From IMG/VR virus record IMGVR_UViG_3300001213_000225, positions 1-25,252 of that record: a stretch of 25,252 bases of DNA; one strand, 5' to 3'. Under the pieces are notes generated by a model. It saw nothing but the letters and a program-made list of their open reading frames with translations, had not been told where the DNA came from and did not search any database. The stretch comes from a virus. Every line of letters begins with the position of its first letter. The first letter of the stretch is position 1. The position numbers and the translations under genes were made by a program. Shown one piece after another: positions 5,075 to 11,884 of this stretch.

Positions 5075-6033
5075 CTTCTTAACCCCATAACAATTCCCCG
5101 CAAGCTATCCCCTGCAAACAACATTCCCTTCTCTATGCAGTCAAACGCACGGCAGAACGATTTCAATTTTAATAACATTTCAATTTGAAAAATACCTTCC
5201 CCAATAACCAAGCCATCGACTTCTATTGCTGCACCTGTTTCGTCCGGTTCGTTTATTGGGTAGGTGGATAGATGGTTTTCACTAATATAAACCCTGCCCA
5301 TATCATCGCTAAAAGGTTTCAAAGATTCTAGTGCTTTAAAGAACCCGTCAGGAACTGGTTTGCAGTTGGACAAATCACCGGGCAATACTTTATCAATGTC
5401 AGGCCAGCCAAGATCGAATAGGGTTGTTCTTATCCAGCGGTCTTTGGCGTAATGGAACGTCAGGTGGTTCCCGTCGGTCTGAATATAGCTTGGGTGTTCC
5501 CTAACCCTTAACAGCTCTTTGACCGCTTGCTTAGGAATGTTCAATGGTGTTGGGAATGCTGCGTTAATCTGCTTCTGAACTATCACCACATTATTAGTGG
5601 CGACCAGTTTGTCCCCATACAGTAGAATTCCGTTTGCCCAGGGTCGGGAAGCGTCTTCCCCAATTACCGGGTAGAGGTCACTTAAGGCATTATACACAAG
5701 CCCCCCTTGTATTGCGTAGAATGTGCCAGCGGGGTCTAATACTGGTAGGGGCTCCGGGTGGCAATCAACTACCGCCTTAAACGACCCGCTTTTAATAGAC
5801 AACCTGCCTTTGGCAGTAAGGGTCAATGAGGTGTTTTGACCACAGTTGCTAATCGCTTTGATAAGGTTGCCCGCCTTTGGGTTGCACACCAAGTGGCAGT
5901 CAATAGGGGACGAGATGGTTAGATTTCCATTAAAAGAGCGTATGGTTCCGTTGGCTAATTGGAAATGGGACATTGCGGGGATAAAATCTTTTGTAGAGAC
6001 TGCACCCTGCACAAATTTGAGATCGGTTAGCAT
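5071..6033 (-). CDS. Probable DNA polymerase sliding clamp (beta-clamp-like)
   Basis: A 320-aa protein, a little shorter than bacterial DnaN (about 366 aa). It has the alternating beta/alpha texture of a clamp: an opening LKFVQGAVSTKDFIPAM, repeated beta strands, and a C-terminal DSLRGIVMGLRR that recalls the terminal strand of DnaN (VVMPMRL). It lies directly upstream of the polymerase gene, with ATGA overlap, as expected for a processivity factor. Its own start overlaps the dpdA stop (TAATG). Sequence identity to known clamps is too low to see by eye, so the call rests on length, the C-terminus and the neighbour. A different polymerase accessory protein remains possible. Confidence 0.55.
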   Translation of the reverse strand: MLTDLKFVQGAVSTKDFIPAMSHFQLANGTIRSFNGNLTISSPIDCHLVCNPKAGNLIKAISNCGQNTSLTLTAKGRLSIKSGSFKAVVDCHPEPLPVLDPAGTFYAIQGGLVYNALSDLYPVIGEDASRPWANGILLYGDKLVATNNVVIVQKQINAAFPTPLNIPKQAVKELLRVREHPSYIQTDGNHLTFHYAKDRWIRTTLFDLGWPDIDKVLPGDLSNCKPVPDGFFKALESLKPFSDDMGRVYISENHLSTYPINEPDETGAAIEVDGLVIGEGIFQIEMLLKLKSFCRAFDCIEKGMLFAGDSLRGIVMGLRR

Positions 6034-6950
6034 TAGAAAAGTTCCTGGATGACGGGTTCAAATATGGGGGATTTATCAAGGTTAATTCTACGGTTCACTT
6101 CCCCAAAAGACCACACGTTATAGACCGCTCTGGATTCGTATACCTTGCTTAGACGCTCATAATCAAAACCTTGTTCGTGCAGCATGGCGCGGAGGTGCTC
6201 TTGCTCGATAGCGGTCAATGTGGTTAAGTGCTGTCCCCATGTGTGCCTGGAGGGGCTTTTTTCTGAAACCTGCAATGTGCCAAAGTCTGGGGTGATAATG
6301 GTTCCGAATGCAGCACTCTGAACCCAAGAGGATGAGTCAACACTGTGCCAAGGATATTTCTTCATAATTTCTACCGAAGTAATACCAAACGCATGGATTT
6401 TCTTTCTTGGTCTACCATGCTCGTCTATTATATAATTTGACCACATTCTATCCAGCCAGATGATTAATTGCTTGGTGCTGGATCCAACCATGCCGCCCAG
6501 GGTGAGGTAGGGATAATTATCCAGATAGTATTGGAGATACCTTTCGTCCTCCCCTGCGTGAAAACAGGGCAGCGGTGTCACGCCTAATTGTTCCATTCGT
6601 TTCTGGTTCTGGTAGGTGAGCAAGGGGTCACCAATACCGTCCAATACCGACGCAAGAACAACCCCATCTTCCTCCCGGATGATGTCCGTATTGGTTTTAA
6701 TATATTGGCAGTATTCTTCAATGTCAATGGTGACCCCTAACGTATAAGCCGAAAACGCTCCACTATCTATAAATACCTTATCCCCACGCGAACGCATTGC
6801 TTCTACGAATTGGGGTTTGTGAACGTAATGGTATGATTCCAATAGGTGCGGGTATTGGTTCACAACATACTGCTCATATTCATTTAGCTTATCATATCTA
6901 GCGGTGTGTTTATAACCGTTCGAATGTATTGCAGCCATGTAGATGTTCAT
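6033..6950 (-). CDS. dpdA: DpdA-type transglycosylase (inserts 7-deazaguanine into DNA)
   Basis: The 305-aa protein has the hallmarks of the tRNA-guanine transglycosylase superfamily. IDSGAFS (61-67) matches the DSGGFQ active-site motif with Asp62, LGGMVG (151-156) matches the GGL-VG substrate loop, and HSVDSSSW (202-209) carries a candidate nucleophile Asp205. The C-terminal CxCxxC...H zinc site of tRNA enzymes is absent, as in short viral DpdA proteins. In known systems DpdA exchanges guanine in DNA for preQ0 or a related base, protecting phage DNA from restriction. Every preQ0-pathway gene lies immediately upstream in the same operon, which supports a DNA rather than tRNA role. Start ATG 6950 follows the folE stop by 4 nt with a weak ribosome site. 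Confidence 0.85.
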   Translation of the reverse strand: MNIYMAAIHSNGYKHTARYDKLNEYEQYVVNQYPHLLESYHYVHKPQFVEAMRSRGDKVFIDSGAFSAYTLGVTIDIEEYCQYIKTNTDIIREEDGVVLASVLDGIGDPLLTYQNQKRMEQLGVTPLPCFHAGEDERYLQYYLDNYPYLTLGGMVGSSTKQLIIWLDRMWSNYIIDEHGRPRKKIHAFGITSVEIMKKYPWHSVDSSSWVQSAAFGTIITPDFGTLQVSEKSPSRHTWGQHLTTLTAIEQEHLRAMLHEQGFDYERLSKVYESRAVYNVWSFGEVNRRINLDKSPIFEPVIQELF

Positions 6951-6954
6951 ATTG

Positions 6955-7848
6955 TTATTTCACAGCGTTCAAAAATTCCCCGCGGCAACTTGCGTCATCA
7001 TAGAAGCAACCCGCCAACGATGTGGTTATAGTGCTCGAGCCCTGTTGGCAGACACCACGCGATTCCATGCACATATGACGAGCTTCTATTTGCACTCCTA
7101 CACCAAAAGGGGAAAGGTTTCCCATTAAGGCTTGGGCTATCTGGTCTGTTAGGCGTTCTTGCACTTGCAACCGCCTGGCAAAGGCGTCAACCACCCGGTT
7201 AATCTTGCTTAGTCCCACAATACGTTTATTGGGTATATAAGCAACTGTGGCGGTTCCAAAGAAAGGAGCAAGGTGGTGTTCGCAATGGGAATAAAAGGGA
7301 ATGTTTTTAACCAGTATCATCTGATTGTAAGTCTCACCACCATCCTCGAAGCTGGTAAACAATGCGGGGATGTCAACGGTGTAACCACCTGCCCAATGCT
7401 TCCAGGCCTTTGCTACCCTTGCAGGCGTATCCCTTAAGCCTTCCCGGGTTGTGTCTTCACCGATGTATTGTAGCAATCTGACCACATTATCCGTGAAGCT
7501 TTTGTCTGCACCTTGTTCGCCCACTTCCCAGGGGAACTGATACCAGTTGTTGTCTGGCGCCCCTTTGAGTTTGTTGATAAGAGCATAGAACGGTTGATTT
7601 GGGTAGCGTTTCCTTGTTGCCCCAGTATCGATAATATCGTCCACGATTATGTCAGCTTGCTCAAGGGATTCTGTCATTCTATAAGACGGGCTCAATGACA
7701 TTAAAGCATAAGCAACCGGAACCCCGCCTCTTGGTACTGGATAGATTAAAACAGGGTTGTCTTGTGACATTTCAAAATAAGTCAATTGAATGCGTTCGTG
7801 CATCTGTGCAGCTAACCTAATCACATCATGATTTGTTAATACTTTCAT
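6955..7848 (-). CDS. folE: Gpt-like phosphoribosyltransferase fused to GTP cyclohydrolase I
   Basis: This is a two-domain protein of 297 aa. Residues about 120-297 are GTP cyclohydrolase I: LLQYIGEDTTREGLRDTPARV, then HCEHH (188-192) and a later Cys260, giving the zinc ligands Cys189, His192 and Cys260, and RGVCQQGSST near the end. This enzyme makes dihydroneopterin triphosphate, the first step to preQ0. Residues about 1-112 resemble purine phosphoribosyltransferases. PVPRGG (37-42) matches the SRGG loop, VDDIIDTGAT (69-78) is the PRPP-binding motif, and WYQFPWEVG (102-110) parallels the WIEQPWDMG of E. coli Gpt. The stretch between RGG and the PRPP motif is about 20 residues shorter than in Gpt, so the flexible catalytic loop may be missing. 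The start overlaps the queD stop (ATGA) and has a GGGGG ribosome site. Confidence 0.88.
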   Translation of the reverse strand: MKVLTNHDVIRLAAQMHERIQLTYFEMSQDNPVLIYPVPRGGVPVAYALMSLSPSYRMTESLEQADIIVDDIIDTGATRKRYPNQPFYALINKLKGAPDNNWYQFPWEVGEQGADKSFTDNVVRLLQYIGEDTTREGLRDTPARVAKAWKHWAGGYTVDIPALFTSFEDGGETYNQMILVKNIPFYSHCEHHLAPFFGTATVAYIPNKRIVGLSKINRVVDAFARRLQVQERLTDQIAQALMGNLSPFGVGVQIEARHMCMESRGVCQQGSSTITTSLAGCFYDDASCRGEFLNAVK

Positions 7849-8315
7849 TCATCCCCCATTGTATCCAATACGGCTACTGCTGAACACTTGCTTGTCTCGT
7901 AGAATTCTACCTTGACCAGAGTCACGCCTGTTCCCTTCAATTGCAAGGGTCCAATGGTGTGCAGCAAGTAGTCCGCCATATTTTCAGCTGTAGGATTGAA
8001 CGGGAGAAACACTAAAGAATCCCCAATGATACCACAAGGCTCCCCGTACGGACTACTTCCCAACACCTCAAAGAGTTCCCTAAACAACCCGTCCCCGTCC
8101 CAGACTAGAAAGCGGTGATCCCAATTGTTTTCCAACCACATGCACAACCTGTCTTTGACTGCACTAAAGTCCAGCACCCTGCCTATGGCATCCAGGTCAC
8201 CTACACAATGAAAAATCACTTTGCCATTGTGGCCATGCAGGTGCTTACACTTGCACTCGTGACCTGTGACAACATGCCCGTATGAGAATTCATGTTCGCG
8301 CTTAATTGAGATCAT
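7845..8315 (-). CDS. queD: 6-carboxy-tetrahydropterin synthase QueD
   Basis: A 156-aa member of the PTPS/QueD T-fold family. His14 (SYGH) and the HGH pair His27/His29 are the zinc ligands, and Cys23 in CKHLHGH has the catalytic C-x3-HGH spacing of QueD rather than of pyruvoyl-tetrahydropterin synthase. NNWDHRFL, PTAENMADYL and FYETSKC complete the family pattern. It converts dihydroneopterin triphosphate from FolE to 6-carboxy-5,6,7,8-tetrahydropterin, the substrate of QueE. It is longer than E. coli QueD (121 aa) because of loops in the middle. The gene overlaps the QueF-like gene by 14 bp and folE by ATGA. Confidence 0.92.
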   Translation of the reverse strand: MISIKREHEFSYGHVVTGHECKCKHLHGHNGKVIFHCVGDLDAIGRVLDFSAVKDRLCMWLENNWDHRFLVWDGDGLFRELFEVLGSSPYGEPCGIIGDSLVFLPFNPTAENMADYLLHTIGPLQLKGTGVTLVKVEFYETSKCSAVAVLDTMGDE

Positions 8316-8580
8316 TCTTTATGCTCACTGTGTGTTTGTTAAAAATCAATCGAATTGTTGTTTCATCGCATTTAAGGTTCTGGTGAACCAATTCAGCGCA
8401 TTCCTCCATGAACAGTTTCTTTCCTTGCAGAGTCCGCCTTATTATCTTCCTGACATTATAGAGTTCCATAAAAGGTTTGTTGATAAAGACACATTCGACA
8501 AAAATAAAGTCTGGTAAGCCATTGATTGGACAGAAAGTTATAACTGGAAACCAGTGCGTAATTGTTACATGATGATCCAT
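8302..8580 (-). CDS. Minimal QueF-like T-fold protein lacking the NADPH motif, 92 aa
   Basis: The protein aligns by eye with the QueF nitrile reductase core. FCPINGLPDF (16-25) corresponds to the LCPKTGQPDF of B. subtilis QueF, giving Cys17 and Asp24 as equivalents of the thioimide-forming Cys55 and of Asp62. FMEEC (57-61) corresponds to FHEDC, giving Glu59 for Glu97. The Cys-Asp (7) and Asp-Glu (35) spacings are identical. His96 is replaced by Met58. The NADPH-binding motif ESKSLK is not preserved (here ELYNVRK). Archaeal QueF-like (QueF-L) enzymes have this same pattern and convert preQ0 to archaeosine without NADPH. Start ATG 8580 is chosen because GGAG lies six bases before it; ATG 8592 has no ribosome site. 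Other preQ0-modifying activities cannot be excluded. Confidence 0.68.
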   Translation of the reverse strand: MDHHVTITHWFPVITFCPINGLPDFIFVECVFINKPFMELYNVRKIIRRTLQGKKLFMEECAELVHQNLKCDETTIRLIFNKHTVSIKNDLN

Positions 8581-8969
8581 ATGGCGCTCCATGAGGTTGT
8601 TAGTAGAAGACCATGGGCCCAGGATTTATTAAAAAATTCCCACTCTTCGAAATTGCCAAAGCCCTTGGTTATAAATGGATAAAGAAGCCTTGGGGACCAG
8701 CGTTCTGAATGCGTATAAAAATCAAGCACTAAATGGGAGCTTGTTGCAAATACCGTTAGAAACGGGTCAACCCCGAGTAGAATTCCTAACAAGGTTACAC
8801 AACCAACGAACAGTAGACTATGAGTGATAAAGTACCCTATTGTTGGTCTGCAAGTCCTTTTCAAAGGTAACACAACATCCGGAAGAATCCCTAGTGCCAT
8901 CCCTGTCAATGGGAAACCATAGTGATGCCCAACACTTGCACCCGCCAAAGCGTGAGAAAAAATATCCAT
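8565..8969 (-). CDS. YdjM-like (DUF457) inner-membrane putative metal hydrolase
   Basis: A 134-aa integral membrane protein with the pattern of the YdjM/DUF457 family: an N-terminal DIFSHALAGASVGH, a mid-protein PTIGYFITHSLL and SHLVLDFYTHS, each with His/Asp residues at helix ends that could bind metal. About three to four hydrophobic segments are visible. The family is described as inner-membrane metal-dependent hydrolases of unclear substrate. Here it lies between queC and the QueF-like gene, joined to queC by TAATG overlap, so it belongs to the modification operon by position. What it would hydrolyse in this pathway is unknown, and it may simply be a passenger. Confidence 0.75.
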   Translation of the reverse strand: MDIFSHALAGASVGHHYGFPLTGMALGILPDVVLPLKRTCRPTIGYFITHSLLFVGCVTLLGILLGVDPFLTVFATSSHLVLDFYTHSERWSPRLLYPFITKGFGNFEEWEFFNKSWAHGLLLTTSWSAIWIIM

Positions 8970-9715
8970 TACAAATACCCCTTGTAATTATCACTTACTG
9001 GCAATTCCATTAATCCTTCTTTGACTGCTTCCAACACAAGCGGGTCAGGTAACCCGGCTTCCAGGAACCCCTGAGCTCGAAGTACATTTGCATGATTCAT
9101 GTCCGTGGGCGGGTACTTGCCATCGTAGCTTGTGTGGCTATAAGCAAGAGCTTCCCAACAATCAGGCATTGCGTAAGCCATGGTACAGATTTCTTTCTTG
9201 TTTAATTGTAACAGCGGGGTGACGATTTCGATCTGTCGTGCCCCCAAAGCACTGTCAATCATTTGTTGCATTGCTTGGATAAACTTTTCACGACAGTCCG
9301 GATAATTTGCATTATCTGATTCGCACACCCCTGTAACAATACTCTTACAACCCAAGTGAATCGCATGGTTAGCAGCTACCAACAAGAAGAACGGGTTGCG
9401 TAAAGGAACAAACGTTAGTTCAGTCCGGTTACCAATCACCTTATCCATTTGTTCGTAATTAACGTACTGTTCTAATTCGTTATCGCTTAGTAACGGAGAG
9501 GTGGATTTTAATATTCCATCGCATTCCATTAATTCGTGACTATGCACTTTAGCCATCCCCCCGATTTCCAGAGCCGCATTAATTTCAGCACAGTGCCTCT
9601 GCCCGTAATCAAAAGTAATAGCGTGAACCTCTTTATATTCCCGCAATGCCCAAAAAAGACAAGTTGTAGAGTCCTGTCCTCCACTTAAGATAACCAATGT
9701 TTTTTCGTCTTTCAT
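8969..9715 (-). CDS. queC: 7-cyano-7-deazaguanine synthase QueC, zinc cysteines missing
   Basis: The 248-aa protein carries the ATP pyrophosphatase loop LSGGQDST (10-17), FVPLRNPFF (102-110) and GVCESDNANYPDCR (129-142), all typical of QueC. QueC converts 7-carboxy-7-deazaguanine to preQ0 with ammonia and ATP, through an amide intermediate. The zinc region normally reads TCY.G...PCG.C..C.LR..GF. Here it reads TSYDG (195-199) and PTDMNHANVLRAQGF (203-217), so Ser196, Thr204, Asn207 and Asn210 replace all four cysteines. The fold may have lost the zinc, or activity may be altered, for example stopping at the amide. There is no glutamine amidotransferase domain. Ribosome site GGGGGC precedes ATG 9715. 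Confidence 0.88.
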   Translation of the reverse strand: MKDEKTLVILSGGQDSTTCLFWALREYKEVHAITFDYGQRHCAEINAALEIGGMAKVHSHELMECDGILKSTSPLLSDNELEQYVNYEQMDKVIGNRTELTFVPLRNPFFLLVAANHAIHLGCKSIVTGVCESDNANYPDCREKFIQAMQQMIDSALGARQIEIVTPLLQLNKKEICTMAYAMPDCWEALAYSHTSYDGKYPPTDMNHANVLRAQGFLEAGLPDPLVLEAVKEGLMELPVSDNYKGYL

Positions 9716-9724
9716 TTTCGCCCC

Positions 9725-10423
9725 CTATGGCATTTTGATGATTTTGTGAATTTGTAAACTAAGGATATACCCCTGTGTCATGCAGCTCTGGATTGCTTCA
9801 CGGAGATTCTGTTTATTCTTGACCGGGTCATTTTCGTCGGCTGGTGAAATATAAACAGGTACGCGAGGGCAAGGCATGGCAATCCCCCTTGTCGGATGGT
9901 CAAGCACTCTATAAGGTAAACCGTTCTCTGGGTTACACTCGTGGGCTCTAACCACATACTTAAAAGCGCAGGAATTATTGAAAATATCTTTGTGAATGCT
10001 TCCGGTTTTAGGAGCGCACACTATGAACGCTGATGGTCTTGGGGAAAGTGTATTTATACCCCAGTTGATCTGCATGGGTGGCGGGAGTGTCCCGTTTGTT
10101 TCCACCTGCACGGTAAACTTTTCTTCTAACAGGTTTCGAATTAGTTTAAATAAGTTCTGCCGAAATGGTTCGCCCCCTGTAATTATAATAAGGGGTAACC
10201 CGTAGTTTCTGCAATCCTCTACAATATATTGGATTCTCATTTTGTCCCGTCTGGATGTGTAATCCGTATCACACATTGGGCATTGTAAATTACACCCCGC
10301 TAAGCGTATAAAAGTGGCGGGGCGACCTGCGAACGGGCCTTCCCCTTGTATGGTAGCAAAAATGGAATGAACTTCAAGGAATTCCTGGTCGATAAAAGAC
10401 TCAGGTTGTTGGTTGTTTTGCAT
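9725..10423 (-). CDS. queE: 7-carboxy-7-deazaguanine synthase QueE (radical SAM)
   Basis: The 232-aa protein has the QueE-type radical SAM motif GCNLQCPMCDTDY, with Cys44, Cys48 and Cys51 to hold the 4Fe-4S cluster, preceded by TIQGEGPFAGRPATFIRLAGC. ITGGEP (81-86) and VETNGT (107-112) bind SAM and substrate, and the C-terminus SLQIHKIIKMP matches the conserved 'QxHK' end of QueE. The enzyme contracts 6-carboxy-tetrahydropterin to 7-carboxy-7-deazaguanine. It is the first gene of the modification segment, with a GAGGT ribosome site 5 nt before ATG 10423. It lies directly after an intrinsic terminator and has no promoter of its own, so its level depends on read-through. Confidence 0.93.
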   Translation of the reverse strand: MQNNQQPESFIDQEFLEVHSIFATIQGEGPFAGRPATFIRLAGCNLQCPMCDTDYTSRRDKMRIQYIVEDCRNYGLPLIIITGGEPFRQNLFKLIRNLLEEKFTVQVETNGTLPPPMQINWGINTLSPRPSAFIVCAPKTGSIHKDIFNNSCAFKYVVRAHECNPENGLPYRVLDHPTRGIAMPCPRVPVYISPADENDPVKNKQNLREAIQSCMTQGYILSLQIHKIIKMP

Positions 10424-10441
10424 GGTGACCTCATGAGTGAT

Positions 10442-10467
10442 AAAAAAGAGCGCCCGTCCGTGGGCGC
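10442..10467 (-). terminator. Intrinsic terminator upstream of queE
   Basis: On the minus strand GCGCCC, a 6-nt loop (ACGGAC) and GGGCGC form a 6-bp GC-only stem (10467-10450) followed by a run of six T. It lies between the 301-aa repeat protein and queE. No promoter fits between it and queE, so it probably acts as a partial terminator that lowers expression of the modification genes relative to the gene before it. Confidence 0.75.
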
Positions 10468-10479
10468 ATAGGGGGCTGC

Positions 10480-11385
10480 TTATTGGGCAGCGAATGGAAA
10501 CTGTGAAGCGCTTGGGATTGCAGTAATAGCACCTGGATTAAGCTGTGCCGCTTTGGCTGCTAATTTAGCCTGCTTAGCTTGTTCCTTTGCAGCAAATTTC
10601 TCAGCTTCTTTCTGTGCTTTCTCGTTTGCCTTTACCACATCCACGACTTTTGCAATACCGTGGAACTTTTTCCATTGAGGATATTCAGCTTTAACATTGC
10701 CGATGGTAACATTCCAACCAGCCCAACCCTCCAGACCAATTTGGGATTGACCTGCATTATGTGCTTCAGCTGCGGCAACCAGTTCCCCAATTGTTGCAGG
10801 CCTTTGGAAACCAGAACTCATTGTTGAAGCCAGATTCCAGATTTTACCAGCACTGGTATGAGCATGAGGGTGAGCAACACCATTCTGCACAACCTTTTCA
10901 ACTTTTGGCAATTTAGGTTCCGCAACCTTGGCAACCTTTGGAGCAGGTGTTGGAAGAACCGCACCATAGAAAGTCGCCCATTTTGTGAATGCAGTCTTCA
11001 CCGTCAAGGGAATTGGTGCAAAACCAGTCCAACCTTCCAAATTAATTGGATATGCGCCGTTGTTATGGTTAGCAACTGCTTCCAACACTTCTTCAACGGT
11101 TACCATTCTTTTATGATACGTGCTTAAAGCTGAAGCCAGCGCCCAGATGTTTGCAGTTGAGCTCAAGGGTTTTGGTGCTTTGATACCGTTCTGCTCTTGT
11201 GCTACTTCGACTGGTTTTTGCTTAGCTAATGCTGCCGCTTGTTTTTCTGCTGCTTTAGCTTGCTTTTCCGCTTCTTTAGCTTGCTGAGCTGCAAGTTTAG
11301 CAGCTTCTTTTGCTGCCTTTGGATCAGCTCCAGGAACTGCGAAAACAGGTGCGGAAGGTTGTGCTATTTGTGGTTGATTAAACAT
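10480..11385 (-). CDS. Ala/Lys-rich protein with two internal repeat domains, 301 aa
   Basis: No family is recognised. The protein starts with a Pro/Ala segment and a charged Ala/Lys/Glu/Gln helix (residues about 22-62). Two related domains of about 65 residues follow (75-141 and 177-243), sharing IW-LAS, HN, LEGW-G and W--F-G at equivalent positions. They are joined by a Pro/Lys/Val linker (about 144-172), and a second Ala/Lys helix (about 252-284) ends the protein. High Lys and Ala content and repeated aromatic domains suggest a DNA- or protein-binding structural protein, but this is inference. It has its own strong promoter and is followed by a terminator, which points to high expression. 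GGAGATAGAAA precedes ATG 11385. Confidence 0.65.
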   Translation of the reverse strand: MFNQPQIAQPSAPVFAVPGADPKAAKEAAKLAAQQAKEAEKQAKAAEKQAAALAKQKPVEVAQEQNGIKAPKPLSSTANIWALASALSTYHKRMVTVEEVLEAVANHNNGAYPINLEGWTGFAPIPLTVKTAFTKWATFYGAVLPTPAPKVAKVAEPKLPKVEKVVQNGVAHPHAHTSAGKIWNLASTMSSGFQRPATIGELVAAAEAHNAGQSQIGLEGWAGWNVTIGNVKAEYPQWKKFHGIAKVVDVVKANEKAQKEAEKFAAKEQAKQAKLAAKAAQLNPGAITAIPSASQFPFAAQ

Positions 11386-11417
11386 TTTCTATCTCCAGTT
11401 AGATTAAAATTAAATTG

Positions 11418-11434
11418 CATGTCCGTCTGACATG
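11418..11434 (-). promoter_or_regulatory. Inverted repeat at the transcript start of the repeat-protein gene
   Basis: CATGTC-N5-GACATG is a perfect 6-bp inverted repeat with a 5-bp spacer. It covers about +1 to +17 of the transcript predicted from the promoter at 11441-11468. It could be a repressor operator, or a 5' hairpin that protects the mRNA. No matching copy was noticed in the other promoter regions of the window. Confidence 0.45.
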
Positions 11435-11468
11435 ATTAAAAGTATAAAGAGTATTTTAGAAAAGTCAA
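11434..11468 (-). promoter_or_regulatory. Sigma70-type promoter for the repeat-protein and modification genes
   Basis: Reading leftward, TTGACT (-35, 11468-11463) is followed by 16 bp and TATACT (-10, 11446-11441), each five of six matches to consensus. The -35 box overlaps the TGA of the upstream 139-aa gene. The start would be near 11434, leaving a leader of about 48 nt. This is the best promoter seen ahead of the que/dpdA/polymerase genes. Confidence 0.7.
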
Positions 11469-11884
11469 TACCCATTAACTCCTTTTATAAAAATATTTTT
11501 TGTATTGGGTTCTACAGGAATCCTATTTTTGAGGTAACTTCCTAATTTATAATTAAATCTATCGCTCCGGGGCTCATCCCCTAGATCAGCAAGTTGGTAT
11601 TGTAATTCGTAAAAATTAACTTCACTTGGAGTTGCATACCAACAAAATTCGCTTAATCGTTGTATTAAATCCCCTCTCCCTAGTTGGTGCGGGAACCCGA
11701 GCGCATTATATAGCCCCTGCAATTGAGTGTTAGTGAACCTATTAAATTGCTTGGAGCAGTCTTCGACGGGGCATATGACCACAGTATCGGCAGAAAATTC
11801 CAATAACATGAGCAAGCAAAGGGTTCCGTAACTCTCGCACTTATATGGCACTGTGTTGAGTGTGTGGTTAATCAGAACATACAT
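11465..11884 (-). CDS. Hypothetical protein, 139 aa, possible SAP-like segment
   Basis: The central part (TNTQLQGLYNALGFPHQLGRGDLIQRLSE, written here by its key elements L-x2-LYNALG and RGDLIQRL) has the helix-extended loop-helix spacing of SAP-type DNA-binding motifs. The match is weak. The N-terminus (MYVLINHTLNTVPYKC) looks beta-rich, and the C-terminus is basic (YLKNRIPVEP). It overlaps the helicase gene by 17 bp. A helicase accessory role would fit the position, but nothing else supports it. Confidence 0.55.
   Translation of the reverse strand: MYVLINHTLNTVPYKCESYGTLCLLMLLEFSADTVVICPVEDCSKQFNRFTNTQLQGLYNALGFPHQLGRGDLIQRLSEFCWYATPSEVNFYELQYQLADLGDEPRSDRFNYKLGSYLKNRIPVEPNTKNIFIKGVNGY

Follow-up and report, generated by a model that had tools for sequence, protein, structure and literature searches.

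A Gpt-like phosphoribosyltransferase domain without its flexible loop is fused to GTP cyclohydrolase I in viruses and in small-genome bacteria

A gene of a viral 7-deazaguanine operon gives GTP cyclohydrolase I a new architecture by joining two known domains: an N-terminal Gpt-like (XGPRT) phosphoribosyltransferase (PRT) domain and a complete FolE. The gene (6955-7848, minus strand, 297 aa) lies in IMG/VR virus record IMGVR_UViG_3300001213_000225, whose 25,252 bases form the window, that is, the whole stretch of DNA analysed here. The reading preferred here, to which we assign a probability of roughly one half, is that a catalytically crippled ligand-binding domain adjusts FolE activity to the state of the purine nucleotides or of PRPP. 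A wider formulation, in which a phosphoribosyltransferase turned ligand sensor controls FolE in viruses and a few bacteria in a GFRP-like manner, also when encoded by a separate gene adjoining folE, falls slightly short of even odds.

Domain composition and operon context

As a single sequence, residues 1 to about 112 match phosphoribosyltransferases weakly and stay below the curated score cut-offs for XGPRT/Gpt, with 18.9 bits against 26.3 for PF00156 and 15.1 bits (E 0.013) against 138 for the XPRT family PRK09177. A profile built from 12 homologous N-terminal domains matches the E. coli and Yersinia XGPRT sequences of the PDB with E values of 2e-7 to 3e-6. In the AlphaFold model of the monomer (mean pLDDT 94.5) the domain superposes on XGPRT 4jls with Z 12.0 over 108 residues at 3.1 Å, as befits a type I phosphoribosyltransferase fold. 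Profile and model agree in deriving the N-terminal domain from xanthine-guanine phosphoribosyltransferase.

Residues 116-297 are FolE according to all profile libraries consulted, among them Pfam GTP_cyclohydroI (PF01227, E 2.5e-68, 229.5 bits against a cut-off of 27) and NCBIfam folE (TIGR00063, 214.7 bits against a curated cut-off of 181.6), and this part of the model superposes on Thermus thermophilus FolE with Z 25.1. The catalytic and zinc-binding residues of E. coli FolE are C110, H112, H113, H179 and C181. The corresponding Cys/His set is in place in the fusion, since C189, H191, H192, H258 and C260, within C189-E-H-H192 and H258-M-C260, are present and invariant among 75 homologues. 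The protein is a predicted GTP cyclohydrolase I and would be expected to have FolE activity. The best profile match (E 2e-7), the fold and the TIGR00063 score bear out the initial annotation, which had described a Gpt-like phosphoribosyltransferase fused to FolE.

Fused translation is supported by the overlap of the fusion start with the queD stop and by a GGGGGA just upstream of that start (Table 1). The operon runs queE-queC-(queF-like)-queD-fusion-dpdA, and the setting among dpdA, queD, queC and queE was likewise recognised correctly at the outset. Given the QueF-like protein, the phage may process preQ0 further, to G+ or preQ1; in MMDA13, the gene at its position is annotated as a QueF-like archaeosine synthase. 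Separately, a YdjM-like membrane protein is encoded inside the operon (8565-8969, minus strand; PF04307 E 8e-5, below the cut-off), and the CPINGLPDF of the QueF-like protein (8302-8592) is close to the QueF catalytic-Cys motif.

Table 1. Features of the fusion gene and its operon in window coordinates
Feature	Position	Strand	Evidence
N-terminal XGPRT/Gpt-like domain without flexible loop, residues 1-112	7513..7848	-	family profile, AlphaFold model superposition
FolE (GTP cyclohydrolase I) domain, residues 116-297	6958..7503	-	Pfam, NCBIfam, model superposition
PPi loop VPRGG, residues 38-42 (PRGG 39-42)	7723..7737	-	G42 73/73, G41 71/73, R40 67/73
Site of the missing flexible loop II, residues ~52-62	7663..7695	-	segment count, HMMER alignment gap
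PRPP-binding loop VDDIIDTGAT, residues 69-78	7615..7644	-	D70, D71, G76, T78 73/73; D74 72/73
Purine-binding elements K93, W102-x2-FPWE108	7525..7572	-	W102, P106, E108 73/73; W107 72/73; K93 69/73
ATGA overlap of queD stop and fusion start (translational coupling)	7845..7848	-	sequence, ORF coordinates
dpdA (DNA guanine transglycosylase), directly downstream of the fusion	6033..6950	-	PHROG 887, 2.3e-83
queD/PTPS	7845..8315	-	PF01242, 1.3e-23
Small QueF-like protein, 96 aa	8302..8592	-	QueF-II, E 0.004
queC	8969..9715	-	PF06508, 4.7e-50
queE radical SAM	9725..10423	-	PHROG 2076, 1.2e-51

A conserved pocket without the flexible loop

Conservation was assessed over 73 non-redundant domains, viral (including that of the split locus L037) and cellular (L099 and L131). 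The features expected of XGPRT, namely the PRPP loop DDxxDTGxT, the PPi loop RGG, the purine-binding Lys and W-x3-PW(D/E), are all found, and PRGG (39-42), VDDIIDTGAT (69-78) and W102-x2-FPWEVG agree with the initial description. Of the 105 columns, the 20 with the highest conservation include 12 of the 14 positions that we assume to contact ligands in XGPRT (p 5e-9). Judged from this pattern, the domain has conserved a pocket that would be expected to accommodate a 6-oxopurine (nucleotide) together with a phosphoribosyl group like that of PRPP.

The flexible loop, on the other hand, has disappeared. By an alignment-based count, the segment from RGG to DDxxD spans 27 residues in the 6955-7848 protein, 21-34 in 72 of the 73 domains and 42 in the remaining one, and 48-51 in true Gpts (Haemophilus, Rheinheimera and others). 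HMMER alignment with XGPRT places 21 extra Gpt residues at the loop site, and none of the 73 non-redundant family domains has flexible loop II with its Ser-Tyr motif. The shortfall of about 20 residues noticed earlier in this one protein is seen here as the 21-residue HMMER gap, and the shortening extends to all 73. In Gpt this loop closes the active site as catalysis proceeds; its loss is evidence against efficient turnover but not against the binding of ligands.

This pattern bears directly on guanine salvage, in which an active N-terminal phosphoribosyltransferase would turn guanine and PRPP into GMP, and host kinases would carry the product on to GTP for FolE. We regard salvage as the chief rival, conceivable but rather unlikely. 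In its favour, all base- and PRPP-contact residues are kept, including Asp74 and Lys93, whose positions serve catalysis in active phosphoribosyltransferases; their retention in 72 and 69 of the 73 domains, respectively, goes beyond the needs of a sensor for PRPP alone and in that respect counts against the preferred reading. Against salvage, the loop carrying the Ser-Tyr dipeptide is missing throughout, Lys93 is replaced in four domains (L004, L060, L078 and L098) and Asp74, the third Asp, in one (L082), and in the cellular copies RGG has become KNG/KSG and PWE has become P(Y/F)E. Nor is channelling obvious, and GMP would need two kinases before it could serve as GTP.

The conserved residues also weigh on two other explanations. 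The domain might be structural, docking on DpdA, QueD or the polymerase clamp, or setting the FolE oligomer, with no metabolite control. The missing loop fits such a loss of catalysis, but a surface for docking could afford to lose the acids of the PRPP loop and the Trp that stacks on the purine, which every member keeps, and this role seems improbable. Alternatively, the pocket might have turned to 7-deazaguanines, as a preQ0 feedback sensor or for phosphoribosyl transfer to preQ0. PreQ0 offers a 2-amino-6-oxo edge that Lys93 and Trp102 could read, and feedback on the first enzyme of a pathway would make sense. The position of Asp74, however, faces N7 of guanine in phosphoribosyltransferases, and the kept Asp would clash with the C7 nitrile; we give this explanation very little credence.

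Occurrence in viruses

Used alone as a query, the N-terminal domain matches 33 of 50,697 GenBank phage records, and the number of records matching the entire fusion over 80% or more of its length is likewise 33; where the records are annotated, the match is a GTP cyclohydrolase gene, which in PaMx25 is divided between two annotated genes despite a continuous frame. A profile scan of IMG/VR gave 328 relatives, of which the best 80 were combined with earlier ones and the analysed record into 84 loci; the viral samples were thus chosen by similarity and are no census. PRT and FolE share one ORF in 83 of the 84 loci and are successive ORFs in one frame in L037. Full length in the 33 GenBank records and in those 83 loci, the fusion is not a product of chance and forms a widespread family. 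At L037 (7286-8329) a single TAG separates PRT from FolE, either as a natural split or with stop readthrough.

The initial annotation had proposed a search for the same domain order in other DpdA phages, and dpdA indeed accompanies the fusion in 79 of the 84 loci. Four of the five loci without it end at most 832 bases from the fusion gene, and L096, also dpdA-less, is truncated at the end that in L090, a near relative, carries dpdA. Every viral contig of sufficient reach has dpdA alongside the fusion. Fusions occurring consistently in phages without dpdA, which had been named as evidence against recycling, are not what phages present; dpdA-free fusions are found in cells. The constant viral association speaks for salvage, for which the guanine would come from DpdA release in phages and from turnover in cells.

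A second sample, picked by DpdA, comprises 62 loci non-redundant by DpdA; in the stretch examined, 24 carry the fusion, 36 carry FolE alone and 2 carry neither. Since many related phages lack the fusion, the PRT domain counts as accessory, and its absence from many dpdA phages is also a point against a sensor. In most phages queD, dpdA and the polymerase clamp belong to the operon of the fusion, an arrangement in favour of a docking role.

Three candidates for other arrangements were set aside. In PaMx25 (L013 5964-6894), publicly annotated with separate gp38 and a short folE, the fused frame is open and gp38 is called in another frame. The FolE of Providencia phage PSTCR4 (L015 7647-8663) has a different N-terminal extension of ~150 aa with no PRT profile match, and the PRT accompanying an unfused FolE in L187 has a longer loop region and lies ~1 kb away. 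Among the neighbouring genes, L004 has a 649-aa DpdA ORF (7522-9471) seemingly interrupted by a large intein-like insert, and its clamp gene (9843-11855) looks the same; in L035 (10884-12942) two tandem DpdA-like ORFs directly follow the fusion.

Cellular fusions without DpdA

A genome scan yielded two cellular fusions, L099 and L131. The former lies on a Candidatus Peribacteria contig, next to genes read from the sequence as dihydrofolate reductase and thymidylate synthase. The latter belongs to a clade with genomes of ~1 Mb, and the fusion is present in 12 of the 57 genomes of its class, 24 other members of which have ordinary FolE frames of 186-218 aa. These 12 genomes and one Peribacteria genome have no full-length FolE other than the fusion, an indirect sign that it may act on GTP. 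A search of the 13 genomes, mostly MAGs of no stated completeness, yielded no DpdA; in a repeat with 5 of the 13, four virus records with known dpdA, serving as positive controls, were detected.

The fusion is therefore not confined to genomes with dpdA, and since it is the sole full-length FolE of DpdA-free cells, guanine released by DpdA cannot be its general reason. The domain tracks FolE rather than DpdA. Of the guanine-recycling loop proposed in the initial annotation, the derivation from Gpt, the kept pocket and the company of dpdA in viruses stand; as the main reading it gives way before the family-wide loss of the loop, the DpdA-free cellular fusions and the domain-less FolE of more than half of the dpdA sample. 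The fallback offered with it, that the domain only binds nucleotide, fits better, ligand binding itself being presumed.

The cellular neighbourhoods also tell against the two remaining explanations. Docking on DpdA is hard to apply to cells without DpdA, and no clamp gene was seen beside a cellular fusion. The fusions there sit among pterin or folate genes, and the stretches retrieved around them showed neither queC nor queE, which a pocket for 7-deazaguanines would not lead one to expect. Gene order in the ~1 Mb clade is LLM oxidoreductase-PTPS-PTPS-fusion-SDR-AhbAB-HemA-like-HemC-like, with an acyl-CoA-ligase-like gene between the LLM oxidoreductase and the first PTPS in G241 and G002, and suggests a tetrahydrobiopterin-like pathway. 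A PTPS-PTPS-PRT-FolE-SDR cluster is seen at L285 7452-9835 (~1 Mb genomes), with the fusion at 8286-9137.

Salvage gains one argument from this clade. By length, its other phosphoribosyltransferases look like Prs, PurF, Apt and PyrE, the last two of which were confirmed in G241; no separate Hpt or Gpt was seen among them, and the fused domain is accordingly the only Gpt-type domain there. Salvage predicts this, and it counts against a sensor.

Evolution and repeated pairing with FolE

Presence of the PRT domain was mapped on a quick FolE tree (135 rows, LG+G4, SH-aLRT only, long branches), where it requires 15-17 changes, ~4-6 of them forced by strongly supported branches. The ~1 Mb clade falls together with L006 and L007, both viral (support 99), and L099 with viral L077 (88, on a long branch), so that the cellular copies look acquired, presumably from viruses or a shared source and at least twice. 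The domain is also found on a second, distant FolE lineage (L020, L030, L092, L181 and L183, and L037 with its intervening stop), whose unfused members L180 and L186 adjoin dpdA.

In Flavobacterium phage immuto, a standalone loop-less PRT (L299 6911-7306) lies directly upstream of folE, in a cluster that also holds queD, queE and dpdA. That one domain is found with FolE again and again, in different FolE lineages and both as a fusion and as a separate gene, points to a role in common with FolE. A PRT nearly identical to that of immuto is encoded at L273 (G178 C44, Peribacteria class), and this likeness makes the G178 contig probably viral. Standalone loop-less PRTs of 128 aa occur in two Prochlorococcus genomes (L104 9920-10303 and L110 9980-10363); no folE was found near the standalone loop-less PRTs of Prochlorococcus and of a Patescibacterium, which give no functional clue.

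Proposed function and comparison with known systems

A sensor domain acting on FolE is favoured by the selective conservation of the pocket residues, the absence of the loop from every family member and the tie to FolE where DpdA is lacking. Physical attachment may itself point to regulation, because a regulator must be joined to its enzyme and a salvage enzyme need not be. In the proposed mechanism, the FolE of the fusion would start preQ0 synthesis for DNA modification, while the N-terminal pocket would bind a purine nucleotide, guanine, PRPP or a ppGpp-like alarmone. Binding may then change FolE activity, upwards or downwards, and the GTP-consuming step would thereby follow the purine pool.

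The routes to folate, tetrahydrobiopterin and 7-deazaguanines all begin with FolE, which takes its substrate from the GTP pool. If the proposal is true, the fusion constitutes an unrecognised control point through which purine status reaches DNA modification and pterin synthesis. The PRT-derived domain is carried by about two fifths of the dpdA phage sample and by a small-genome bacterial clade, and an uncharacterised part of phage 7-deazaguanine operons is hidden under the annotation "GTP cyclohydrolase". Searched by term, Hutinet 2019 (PMC6884629) and the MMDA13 paper (PMC7472734), which deal with phage operons of this kind, gave no mention of an N-terminal PRT-like domain on FolE. In the open literature, with subscription journals outside the scope, no description was found of a phosphoribosyltransferase-FolE fusion, nor was one found of GFRP-like control of FolE in phages or bacteria.

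With the FolE of preQ0 and folate synthesis the fusion has in common the catalytic domain, the Cys/His residues and the operon partners, and it adds the N-terminal PRT-like domain; the FolE of phage 9g complements E. coli ΔfolE (PMC6884629). E. coli Gpt/XGPRT (PDB 1a95-1a98, 1nul, 4jit and 4jls) shares its fold and motif order (RGG, DDxxDTGxT, Lys, W-x3-PWD/E) with the N-terminal domain (profile E 2e-6), which differs in lacking ~21 residues of loop II, in being fused to FolE and in scoring below the Pfam and NCBIfam phosphoribosyltransferase cut-offs; any activity of the domain is putative. The immuto PRT is alike in having no loop and in preceding folE in a 7-deazaguanine cluster, but is a separate gene beside a different FolE subtype. 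The animal GCH1-GFRP complex (PDB 1is7, 7ala and 7alb) resembles the proposed system in its idea, a ligand-responsive part that sets GTP cyclohydrolase I activity. No homology with GFRP is claimed, and here the candidate regulator would be a phosphoribosyltransferase-derived domain on the same chain. Bacillus subtilis PurR is a DNA-binding repressor in which a phosphoribosyltransferase fold with a PRPP pocket is used for regulation. The design, a phosphoribosyltransferase fold turned regulator, would be alike in both, with the difference that in the fusion the domain sits on an enzyme.
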